The notes beneath the pieces are model-generated. The model saw only the letters and a list, made by a program, of their open reading frames with translations, had not been told where the DNA came from and searched no databases. Source: Skermanella mucosa (lineage in GTDB: Bacteria; Pseudomonadota; Alphaproteobacteria; Azospirillales; Azospirillaceae). From it: a stretch of DNA of 64,000 nucleotides. Of the stretch, positions 59,531-63,991 are shown in pieces. Each line of letters opens with the position of its first letter. Position 1 is the stretch's first letter. The stretch lies in assembly GCF_016765655.2 (NCBI RefSeq), contig NZ_CP086106.1, positions 4,672,501 through 4,736,500 of the forward strand, written 5' to 3'. A program made the position numbers and the translations under genes.

Positions 59531-60520
59531 TCACTCGCCGGGGCGGAGGAGGCCGGGGAAGACGTCGCTCGGCGCTTGGGCGTCCATCAGTCGATCCATG
59601 TAAGCGTCGTGTTGTTCCGGCGTTGCGGTATCGATCAACCGTTCCACATCTGCCGGCAGGGCGCCGAAGCGGCGGGTGAACTGGCGCTTGAGCAGGGCGG
59701 CCCTGCCCTTGGCCTCGCCCCTGGCTTCGCCCTTGGCTTCGCCCTTGGCGATGAGTTCCTGTTCCCACTTCTTGATGCGTTCCGCCAGCATGCCCTGAAC
59801 CTCCTCGATATCCATCGGCACCGTTGCGGCCTGCGGGCCGCCGACCAGCCCCGCGACCGCGTGCGCCACTACATCGCCGAACGCCAGCCGCAGCGTCGCG
59901 TGGCCCGGATGCTCGGCGAACCAAGCCACCGCCTGCCGAACCAGGCCGGGCAGGTCCTCGGGCCGGTCGCAGATCTCGATCCGGAACAGCAGCGCCACCA
60001 GGCTGTCGTGCCGGGCCAGATCCTCGGCGCGCAGCCGTCCCTCGTCGATCAGATGATAGCGGACCTGCGGCTGCCAAGGCCAGAGCGGCGAGTCCTCCGG
60101 CAGGGCCACGAGGTCAGTCGTGTCGGTGGGGCAGTTCCAGCGGGCCTCGCCGGCATAGAGCACGATCGGCAGCAGCGGAGGCAGCCGGCCGCCCGGGGCC
60201 AGGGCGCGCCCGTCGATGATCTGCTGCCAGAGCAGGCCGGAATAGACCTGCACCCGCACCGGCATGAACCGCTCCGGGGTCGATTGGAACTCCAGCATCA
60301 GGTAGATGTGGACCATCTCGCCGGCCAGCGTCGGCACGCGCCAGATCACGTCGCCCTCGCGCCGGTCGCCCCAGGCGGCGTGGAACTTGGCGTTGACCCG
60401 TTCCAGCCGGGAGAAGTCCAGCAGGGCGGCGATCCCGGCGGGCAGGAAGCCGCGCACGAGCTGCTCGATCATCACCGGGTCGGAGAACAGGCGGTGGTAC
60501 AGGGAGTCGGAGGCTTGCAT
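59531..60520 (-). CDS. Rpn family recombination-promoting nuclease / putative transposase
   Basis: 329 aa from ATG 60520 (MQASDSLYHRLFSDPVMIEQ). The N-terminal YHRLFSDPVMIEQLVRGFLP and the PD-(D/E)XK-type segment MVHIYLMLEFQSTPERFMPV are typical of Rpn (YhgA-like) nucleases. A hydrophilic run of GEAKGEARGEAKGRA near residue 260 is encoded by near-identical 12-bp repeats (59706-59750). The last 60 residues (LLKRQFTRRFGALP) match DUF4351. Members cut DNA and promote recombination, and are common in repeat-rich regions such as this one. Confidence 0.87.
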   Translation of the reverse strand: MQASDSLYHRLFSDPVMIEQLVRGFLPAGIAALLDFSRLERVNAKFHAAWGDRREGDVIWRVPTLAGEMVHIYLMLEFQSTPERFMPVRVQVYSGLLWQQIIDGRALAPGGRLPPLLPIVLYAGEARWNCPTDTTDLVALPEDSPLWPWQPQVRYHLIDEGRLRAEDLARHDSLVALLFRIEICDRPEDLPGLVRQAVAWFAEHPGHATLRLAFGDVVAHAVAGLVGGPQAATVPMDIEEVQGMLAERIKKWEQELIAKGEAKGEARGEAKGRAALLKRQFTRRFGALPADVERLIDTATPEQHDAYMDRLMDAQAPSDVFPGLLRPGE

Positions 60521-60694
60521 GGTCGCGGGCGCCGGTCGGGTGATGGTCGCGCGAACAGCAGCATACTCCCGCAACCATCGGCAAGCCCCGGCAGGTCGCT
60601 GCGACCTTCTGACCCGATCAATTCGTCCCACGGCGCGGTGTGGGAGCACCGGCCCCGAAACAACCGGCATCGGAGCGGCACAGCAATCGATCCA

Positions 60695-60754
60695 AACCTG
60701 AAAGTATAAGGCACGGTCAAAAACACCCCTTCTCATCATGACTGGGCTTGACCC
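60695..60754. repeat. Intergenic repeat A, second copy, left part
   Basis: Matches the left and middle of the copy at 59320-59416. It is cut at GGGCTTGACCC (60744-60754), which is repeated on the far side of the MITE at 60984-60994; the right part of repeat A continues to 61030. Confidence 0.8.
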
Positions 60755-60983
60755 ACGGCTGTCCGGCCCGTTGTTTGCGTACTCCGCAAAAGGATTGGTC
60801 TCGGGAAGAATTGCTCCGTTTTCGTCATGGCCGGACTTGATCCGGCCATCGTCCGCGGGAAGCATCGATGCCTCCGTGCCTTGCGATCCGCGGGTCAAGC
60901 CCGCGGATGACGAACCGAAGGAGAGAATGATCGCCTAGAATGTCCTCAATGGTTGATTAGCAAATGCCGTGCCGGACAGCCGT
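60755..60983 (-). mobile_element. MITE-like element, copy 1 (229 bp)
   Basis: Non-coding element with perfect 13-bp terminal inverted repeats ACGGCTGTCCGGC (60755-60767) and GCCGGACAGCCGT (60971-60983), flanked by an exact 11-bp direct duplication GGGCTTGACCC. Its reverse complement aligns end to end with copy 2. It carries an internal palindrome around CCGCGGGTCAAGCCCGCGG. No transposase inside, so a partner enzyme elsewhere is needed. The long target duplication would fit an IS4-like transposase (inference). Confidence 0.85.
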
Positions 60984-61893: not shown

Positions 61894-62590
61894 GGCGGTG
61901 CGTCCTTCACGGCGTCGCGTGGAACCCGGGCGCGGCGGTACAGCCAGCCCCGGGGACTATGGAAAATCGGGCGAGGTCCGGGCGGAAGCGCCGCTCAGCC
62001 GCCCGGGCCGTGGAAGGTGCCGGAAACGGCAACGGGTGTTCCCGCCGCCGCGAGCGCCGAAGCGCCCGCGGCGGCGGAGAACAAAGATTGGCGCAGCCGT
62101 GCGCCGGTTGTGGTAACTCTTGTCCCAGCCATCGATTCTTCCCTTAACGCTTGGATCGGTGGTCAGGTCGGGCAGTGGAGCTCCAACTCCAGGCCCGGCC
62201 GCCCTGCGGGTGCAAAGGCGCGGCGAGTCTGCGCTTAATATGCATAGCTTGTCAATCACGGCGAAAAATCTTCACGTATTCAGGGCAACGCAACCCCGGC
62301 ACGGTCTGGGGTCGCGTCTGTTCGCCGAAAATCGCCGCTCCCCGACCAACCCGCCTCGTCCCCGGCCCGGCGGCGGACGGTTCTGGTTGCCGGGCAGCGC
62401 CGCCAGCAACCCCCGACCGCCGCCTTGCACGAGGTTTGCGGAGTCGGCGGGAGAAAGCGTCCAAAGGCCCCCCTCGAAAAGGACCGCGGAGGATCGCCGG
62501 CATTGATGGAGCCCTCTCGGCAGCGGAACATCGCCAAGAAGCCCCGGCCAGCCGCCGCGGCTGGCGATCACCCTACTTCGGGAGCTTCCT
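61894..62590. other. Gene-free stretch
   Basis: About 700 bp with only short overlapping open frames in all phases and no ribosome-binding site ahead of any of them. Pro/Arg-rich conceptual products suggest non-coding GC-rich DNA. Nothing else recognised here. Confidence 0.5.
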
Positions 62591-62608
62591 GGAGACCGCT
62601 CAATTTTT

Positions 62609-62637
62609 TTGACAAATCCTCAGTTGCGGTGCTAACT
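62609..62637 (+). promoter_or_regulatory. Candidate promoter in the CRISPR leader region
   Basis: TTGACA (62609-62614), 17-nt spacer, CTAACT (62632-62637) with a TG just upstream, inside an AT-rich stretch (62600-62830) unlike its surroundings. Reads toward the first CRISPR repeat about 200 bp on, as expected for a leader. Confidence 0.4.
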
Positions 62638-62837
62638 GCCGATACGCTTTCGAGCGGTTCGGTACGGCCAAAAACCCCGGACCCGCTCGCAGCAGAGCAA
62701 ACAGTTGATTTACAACGGAATCTTTGAAACTGTGAATGGTTAATTCGGCTTGGAGAACCCGCGATGCGAGCCTCCGCGAGACCCGCTCGAATCCGATCCG
62801 AATTTCCGTTGAAAATCAACGACCTCCAAGGTAGGGG

Positions 62838-62942
62838 GTCTTCCCGGGCAGAAATGCCCGGGCCTCATTGAAACGACAAGCACCCCATTGCCAAGCGGCA
62901 CGAAATGCCGTTGTCTTCCCGGGCAGAAATGCCCGGGCCTCT
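62838..62942 (+). CRISPR. CRISPR mini-array: one intact repeat, one 38-nt spacer, second repeat broken by a MITE
   Basis: Repeat 1 (62838-62874, 37 nt) has an 8-bp stem CCCGGGCA/TGCCCGGG with a GAAA loop, and ends in ATTGAAAC, the usual 3' end of many type I/III repeats. The spacer is 62875-62912. Repeat 2 begins at 62913 and matches exactly for 29 nt to 62941, where MITE copy 2 is inserted. After the MITE the remnant ends CTACAAC at 63189, giving a degenerate last repeat of 37 nt if the insertion is removed. An AT-rich leader-like region lies upstream. No cas gene is in the window. Confidence 0.7.
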
Positions 62943-63171
62943 ACGGCTGTCCAGCACGGTACTTGCTCATCAACTACTGAGAACATTCCTGGCGACTGTT
63001 TTCTCCTTCGGTTCGTCATCCGCGGGCTTGACCCGCGGATCTCAAGACACGGAGGCTTCGACGCTTCCCGCGAAAGATGGCCGGATCTAGTCCGACCATG
63101 ACGAAAGCGGAGTGCTTCCGCCCTCGATCAACCCTTTCGCAGAATGGCCAAACAACGTTCCGGACAGCCGT
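62943..63171 (+). mobile_element. MITE-like element, copy 2 (229 bp)
   Basis: Same length as copy 1 and opposite in orientation; roughly four of five positions identical by eye. Ends ACGGCTGTCC and GGACAGCCGT. Flanks CCCGGGCCTCT (62932-62942) and GCCGGGCCTCC (63172-63182) form a 9-of-11 target duplication. Inserted into the second CRISPR repeat. Contains the same palindrome (CCGCGGGCTTGACCCGCGG) as copy 1 and no ORF of note. Confidence 0.82.
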
Positions 63172-63343
63172 GCCGGGCCTCCCTACAACCTGGCGCCCCG
63201 CCAAAAATCTTGCATTCGCGCCTAACCCCGGATAATGTTCCCCAAATGTTCCCATCCGGCCAAGGCGCTCCAGCCATGCTCGACCACAGCTCCCCGGCAC
63301 CCACGCACCCTCCCCGCCCGCGATCCACCCCACGACCGCGCCC

Positions 63344-63991
63344 GTGATCCTCCTGTCACCGCGCCACGAGGCGTTCTGCAAGGCCATGGCCTGCGGCGTC
63401 GGCACGGCGGAGGCGGCGCGGCGGGCGGGCTATTCGCCTTACGGGGCGAAGCAGCGCGGCGCGGTCCTGACCGCCCGGCCGGACATCCGCGTCCGCATCG
63501 ACCAGCTCCGGACCGACCGGCAATCCTGCCACCAGGACGCCCTGGACCGCGCCGCCGCCCTGGTCGAGACGATCGCGGCCGAGGCGCTGGAGCGCAAGAG
63601 CCTCGGGCTGGCGCTGCGCGCGATCGAGCTGGGCCTCAAGCTTCGCGGCGTGGTCCAGGACAGGCGCATCCCGCACCACTATCTCGGCGACAGGCCGCAC
63701 CCCGACGCCGACCTGGAGATCATGTATTGCGACCCGGAGGAGGAAGACGACCACGCCATCGTCGGCGGGGCGCCCAGACCGGGTCCGGACCAGACCCCCG
63801 GCACGCCGCCGGAGTCCCCGCCGGTCGAAGCCGTCGAGGCGCCGGCCCCGGTGCCCGCCGCAAAGCCCGCCGCGGCGCCGGATAGTGACCTTTCGGCCGT
63901 TTCGATAGTGACCCGCCCCGCCAAGCCCGCCTCCGCGCCGTCCAAGCCCTCCGCGCCGGTGCCGCCCGCCCGGGTGCCGGCCGCCGCCTGA
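63344..63991 (+). CDS. Terminase-small-subunit-like protein
   Basis: 215 aa. The N-terminal 55 residues (LSPRHEAFCKAMACGVGTAE, AARRAGYSPYGAKQRGAVLT, ARPDIRVRID) match the helix-turn-helix DNA-binding domain of phage terminase small subunits. The middle is helical (ALVETIAAEALERKSLGLAL), and the last 80 residues are Pro/Ala-rich and disordered. GTG start without a clear ribosome-binding site, so the exact N-terminus is uncertain. No large terminase or structural phage gene is in view, so it may be the edge of a prophage or a domesticated gene. Confidence 0.65.
   Translation: MILLSPRHEAFCKAMACGVGTAEAARRAGYSPYGAKQRGAVLTARPDIRVRIDQLRTDRQSCHQDALDRAAALVETIAAEALERKSLGLALRAIELGLKLRGVVQDRRIPHHYLGDRPHPDADLEIMYCDPEEEDDHAIVGGAPRPGPDQTPGTPPESPPVEAVEAPAPVPAAKPAAAPDSDLSAVSIVTRPAKPASAPSKPSAPVPPARVPAAA

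Follow-up and report, generated by a model that had tools for sequence, protein, structure and literature searches.

The window analysed here, a stretch of 64,000 nucleotides from the chromosome of Skermanella mucosa, carries close to its right end a CRISPR mini-array whose last repeat is interrupted by a transposable element. On the forward strand, a 233-bp leader (62605-62837) is followed by one full repeat of 37 nt (62838-62874), a 38-nt spacer (62875-62912) and the first 29 nt of a second and last repeat (62913-62941), the whole hairpin included. Next comes a MITE-like element of 231 bp with terminal inverted repeats of ~19 bp (62942-63172, +), followed by a 9-bp target-site copy (63173-63181) and a weak candidate for the displaced 3' end of the last repeat (CCTACAAC, 63182-63189, +), after which the trailer begins.

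Repeat 1 has an 8-bp stem closed by a GAAA loop, is predicted to form a hairpin by fold computation, and ends in ATTGAAAC. It belongs to the Rfam family CRISPR-DR16 (RF01330; 51.5 bits, E 6e-11, gathering score 35), which settles the comparison with known CRISPR repeat families proposed in a preliminary description of this DNA. Repeat 2 is identical to repeat 1 at 29/29 nt, a 29-mer that found no match at up to three mismatches in 100 shuffles of the window; in its broken state it scores 25.8 bits against RF01330, under the gathering score. The coordinates thus agree with the 37-nt palindromic repeat, 38-nt spacer and second repeat identical over 29 nt that had been described. With two repeats and a spacing of 75, compared with 72-78 within each of the main arrays of this genome, the locus has the layout of a CRISPR array, if a minimal one with a single spacer. 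Taking out the element together with one 9-bp copy restores a last repeat of 37 nt, as had been proposed. The restored tail, CCTACAAC, agrees with ATTGAAAC at 4/8 positions, a match equalled or bettered by 5.7% of the window's 8-mers, and so points only weakly to the degenerate 3' end that was part of the same proposal. The spacer itself had no phage or plasmid match covering 80% of its length, and the best of three seed matches to viral contigs agrees at only 23/38 positions, so that the suggested search gave no convincing target. The best plasmid matches (Rhizobium, 25 bases at 92%, E 0.4) were discounted.

The leader lies next to the first repeat, as in type I-G arrays, and shares homology with the two leaders found at the main CRISPR locus. 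Local alignments with these scored 106 and 104, compared with maxima of 32 and 30 among 500 shuffles, and BLAST of the leader plus repeat 1 gave 71-72% identity over positions 5-270. A TTGACA (62609) is common to all three leaders, and AAAAACCCCGGACCCGCTCGC is conserved as well. The sequence had been described as an AT-rich leader with a promoter-like sequence; its G+C content is indeed low (52% vs 67% for the window) and the TTGACA is conserved, but a strict promoter scan of 62560-63300 returned no site.

The interrupting element is short, has inverted ends, occurs in many copies and is flanked by a target-site duplication, as is characteristic of MITEs. The genome holds 37 matches to it, eight of them near full length at ≥83% identity, the window element included. 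Its two ends each agree with the family consensus, of the form CACGGCTGTCCGGCACGGT, at 17/19 positions, and it starts with T where most copies have C. The duplication is a perfect 9 bp, CCGGGCCTC, at 62933-62941, the last 9 nt of repeat 2, and at 63173-63181. When ends and length were compared across 15 copies, a perfect 9-bp duplication was seen in five (again counting the window element) and an 8/9 duplication in one; the remaining nine match at 1 to 7 of 9 positions, and some of these are truncated or mis-bounded. The membership in a multicopy family and the perfect duplication uphold the view that a transposable element with inverted repeats struck the distal repeat. The dimensions first given, 229 bp and an 11-bp near-perfect duplication, are to be replaced by 231 bp and 9 bp, because the terminal element base at both ends had been excluded from the element. 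An IS4/IS231-like identity, for which the target is presumably GGGN5CCC, was dropped since the duplication is 9 bp. The element folds with a z-score of -4.36. Inspection by eye of the 74 end matches in the genome (20 in a backward-read control) did not reveal an autonomous parent, and a plasmid search for one returned two partial matches and no parent.

A second copy of the family (60754-60983, -), 83% identical, lies upstream, and the two bracket ~2.4 kb holding the leader and the array. As this copy has a perfect 9-bp duplication of its own (GGCTTGACC), the two elements inserted separately rather than forming the termini of a single transposon. The open frame of a YhgA-like Transposase_31 gene (59531-60898, -; 70 bits) runs into the second copy. 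Several copies (L007, L009, L113 and L011, the second window copy) lie inside an extragenic palindrome of the CCGGGCTTGACCCGG type, and the window element carries a similar palindrome internally (63014-63044). A preference of the element for hairpins, suggested by eye, was rejected, as 1/10 sites lay below the 5% background in a fold test (P 0.40).

The main CRISPR locus on the same chromosome (C1:1746428-1748400) contains 22 repeats within three mismatches of a 26-nt repeat core; genome-wide, the core has 23 matches at this threshold, all in the two array loci (22 + 1). The main locus comprises one set of 9 and one of 13 repeats; both have a leader of their own and finish with a truncated repeat. 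Its leaders are 98% alike over 230 bp and one of them is internal (L014:16140-17475), so that the locus represents two tandem arrays, probably formed by duplication. One 72-bp repeat-spacer unit is also exactly duplicated there. For one main-locus spacer, 34/38 positions agree with the Caulobacter phage Seuss capsid gene (E 1e-3). Across the repeat copies, the stem arms vary as CCCGGG/CCCGGG, CCCGGG/CCTGGG and CCCAGG/CCTGGG, and such in-step variation is what selection on an RNA hairpin would produce. No Cas protein was found in the neighbouring frames scanned (18 over two scans, three of them in both). A gene of ~200 aa lies directly upstream of a leader both at the main locus (L014:15320-15910, -) and at a leader remnant in S. 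rosea (L130:4541-5143, -), and the two are 72% identical. These proteins (P0001, P0002) have no match above cut-off among Pfam or PHROG families, and P0002, the one searched against plasmids, had no match there; visual inspection alone pointed to a remnant of the gene ahead of the mini-array leader, and none was recovered by tblastn. In the portion of the genome report consulted, 2 CRISPR arrays are given for S. mucosa (PMC11767975). These are probably the two main ones, in which case the mini-array would have gone unannotated.

Relatives within the genus retain still less. At the same site in S. rosea (G002), the flanks are 92-93% identical, ~2.1 kb with the leader is absent or has ~90 bp in its place, and a single repeat is left, 34/37 identical and followed by a different sequence; neither MITE nor second repeat is present. 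A second S. rosea site has a leader remnant and then one decayed repeat, as judged by eye; it adjoins genes homologous to the main-locus neighbours, and its outer flanks do not match. G001, also Skermanella, has one isolated repeat, and G003 and G004 gave no match. A sister array without the insertion had been named as a check: the S. rosea site does lack the MITE, but with its single repeat it is not the empty site sought, and a two-repeat array without the MITE was not found in any relative. The sister-species remnants form a consistent picture of decay, although the losses in the sister species may have been separate from the loss of cas genes in S. mucosa.

Downstream of the mini-array, the window contains a terminase-small-subunit-like gene (63344-63991, +), which matches PHROG 51 (E 7.7e-10); the best PHROG is of unknown function, and the Pfam Terminase_2 match is under cut-off. 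The family is scattered in Skermanella: four sister genomes have between 5 and 23 DNA matches each, fragments counted. Ahead of the window gene, at 63237-63251, stands a GTTC-N7-GTTC motif, which we take to be a LexA-type (SOS-type) box. Such a box lies ≤200 bp upstream of 10/14 terminase-like copies, compared with 0.9% of random pieces, the copies being related and not independent. A terminase-like gene stands within ~1.4 kb of each of the five I-G CRISPR places found across the five Skermanella genomes, which number two in S. mucosa, two in S. rosea and one in G001 (window 62605-63991; L014:14445-18400; L129:3943-4612; L130:3688-5560; L051:8879-9508). Conversely, a CRISPR repeat occurs at only 1/10 fetched terminase-like loci (L052-L061), that one being the S. 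rosea ortholog of the mini-array site. The proximity perhaps reflects shared insertion hot spots.

Cas genes were sought in the S. mucosa genome (7,840,710 bases, of which the chromosome makes up 6,407,183) through four markers, namely Cas1, I-G Cas7, I-G Cas3 and the type III RAMP gene. Neither Cas1 nor a type III RAMP gene was found by searches that were positive in 9/14 and 4/14 control genomes, respectively. I-G Cas7 is likewise absent from this genome, one of 12 searched for it, and there is no full-length I-G Cas3, the best match reaching 31.6 bits over ~170 positions of the helicase region, compared with 559-841 in G006, G020 and G009. By these markers, the genome does not hold the complete type I-G set of Cas4/1, Cas2, Cas3, Cas8g, Cas7 and Cas5-6. 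The array had been called an orphan without cas genes nearby, and this now extends genome-wide for the markers searched. As the part of the genome report consulted describes the S. mucosa 8-14-6T genome as complete, in circular replicons (PMC11767975), an assembly gap is an unlikely cause of the absence. All four sister Skermanella genomes have a Cas1 match (weak in S. rosea, 24.8 bits) and therefore hold other systems. The intactness of the main locus could mean that cas genes were lost recently, or that it is used by something outside the search.

The type to which the arrays belong is apparent from other genera. Scanning the species genome collection by pattern yielded 18 stretches with this repeat class, and of the nine for which chosen neighbouring genes were scanned, five, in other genera of Alphaproteobacteria, adjoin Cas genes. 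Using I-G-specific models, Cas1g with Cas4 was identified at L089, Cas7g and a Cas3g-Cas8g fusion at L094, and Cas1g, Cas5-6 and Cas7g at L099; Pfam showed Cas4-Cas1 fusions at L085 and L090, the latter with Cas2 in addition. The chosen neighbours at L086, L088, L095 and L101 were not Cas genes. I-G Cas7 was found in three of the 12 genomes searched (G006, G009 and G020); it is absent from the five Skermanella genomes and was found in 0/14 control genomes. The repeat class is present in G006 and G020, and a G020 array whose repeats are related (C3:211075-211921) lies ~2.5 kb from a Cas7 gene (C3:208119-208628). The G006 array is ~1 Mb from that genome's own I-G Cas7, and one G020 array is on a different contig from the G020 Cas7 genes. 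A PADLOC scan of chosen frames beside the G006 and G020 arrays, some of them on the wrong strand, gave no Cas gene, I-G Cas7 being elsewhere in both genomes. G009 has I-G Cas7 without a match to the mini-array repeat, so cas type and repeat do not correspond one to one.

Taken together, the mini-array is very probably the shrunken remains of a type I-G array in a genome where no I-G cas genes were found, with a MITE inserted into its last repeat. The homologous leader, the 22-repeat locus in the same genome and the occurrence of the repeat class beside I-G cas genes in other genera bear out the original reading of a genuine CRISPR mini-array. The array would once have been longer and would have been reduced to leader, one full repeat, one spacer and last repeat; a non-autonomous element would then have entered the last repeat directly after the hairpin, making the 9-bp target duplication. 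Cas genes would once have been present and then lost, and the array presumably does nothing today.

The position of the insertion bears on what the array could still encode. Cas6-type enzymes of type I systems cleave the repeat RNA where the hairpin ends on its 3' side, leaving an 8-nt handle. The MITE entered after repeat position 29/37, just after the hairpin; the handle ATTGAAAC, the spacer and the repeat-2 hairpin are all present, and the unit folds with a z-score of -4.23. Since everything up to the expected cut is spared, one crRNA could in principle still be made, and the insertion may have cost nothing, which is moot without Cas proteins. On this analysis, the array could encode one crRNA that would be usable if I-G proteins arrived; no component found in the genome would make use of it.

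Several other readings compete with that of a decayed I-G array. The single spacer may have been kept for a non-immune use, as a guide or regulatory RNA like those of CreA/CreR mini-arrays, possibly with the MITE hairpin shielding it from read-through. All parts of a minimal crRNA unit are present, the unit folds well and TTGACA is retained in the leader, yet such guides act with Cas proteins, whose searched markers are absent, the sister species has neither leader nor spacer at the site, and the strict promoter scan was empty; we regard this use as very unlikely. A CreR-like control of cas genes was dropped because no cas genes were found. Service in trans by a cas locus in the same cell, as raised in the preliminary description, could draw on the array-Cas7 separations in G006 and G020, which indicate that distance alone is no bar, but no candidate exists among the markers searched in this reportedly complete genome, making it very unlikely. 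It is likewise very doubtful, though it could be speculated, that the array is a ready-made single crRNA gene, its transcript capped by the MITE, for use by an incoming I-G system (e.g., on a plasmid), and that the terminase/SOS link marks an island spreading arrays in the genus.

Two further readings deny that an array has decayed here. A chance site may have captured one spacer by off-target integration (neo-CRISPR), which would fit the single spacer and the lack of adjoining cas genes, but it is highly improbable, being largely refuted by the leader homology; moreover, the repeat is found at this site in the sister species too, and there is no Cas1 to integrate a spacer. That the repeat is a REP-type palindrome merely resembling CRISPR is suggested by the strong palindrome and the REP-like palindromes nearby. 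Such a family should appear as scattered single copies with no array or cas locus, whereas the core matches are confined to the two array loci, the repeat falls in a CRISPR family of Rfam and the class is associated with cas genes elsewhere, leaving this reading extremely improbable. The decayed I-G array offers a clear picture of how CRISPR memory decays without cas genes, one species holding 22 + 2 repeats and its sister species single repeats. The mini-array is genuine, and beyond that picture its biology is ordinary genome decay.

Papers found on mobile elements (MITEs or IS) within CRISPR loci, on orphan or I-G arrays and on CRISPR in Skermanella did not refer to this mini-array in the title or the opening of the abstract. 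Insertion of IS elements and MITEs into cas genes has been surveyed (PMC10359306), and the part of that survey consulted mentions CRISPR loci as a further site of IS insertion. The mini-array resembles these cases in having a mobile element in a CRISPR locus, and a 9-bp duplication is given there for IS10; however, the survey concerns insertions into cas genes, whereas the mini-array is without cas genes that could serve it and therefore calls for no selective explanation. With the main locus of its own genome, the mini-array shares a homologous leader, the repeat stem and the lack of cas genes in the neighbouring frames scanned. The main locus differs in its 22 repeats in two tandem arrays, in a repeat 5' end of CTCTCCC instead of GTCTTCCC and in usually having CCTGGG where the mini-array has CCCGGG, and the leaders are only 71-72% identical. 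Compared with type I-G arrays in general, the mini-array is unusual in its one spacer, its interrupted last repeat and the lack of cas genes found in the genome. With the type I-G (formerly I-U, Dpsyc) arrays of Alphaproteobacteria represented by RF01330 it has in common the repeat, its hairpin, the spacer length and the 3' ATTGAAAC, which reads ATTGAAGC in G006 and G020.
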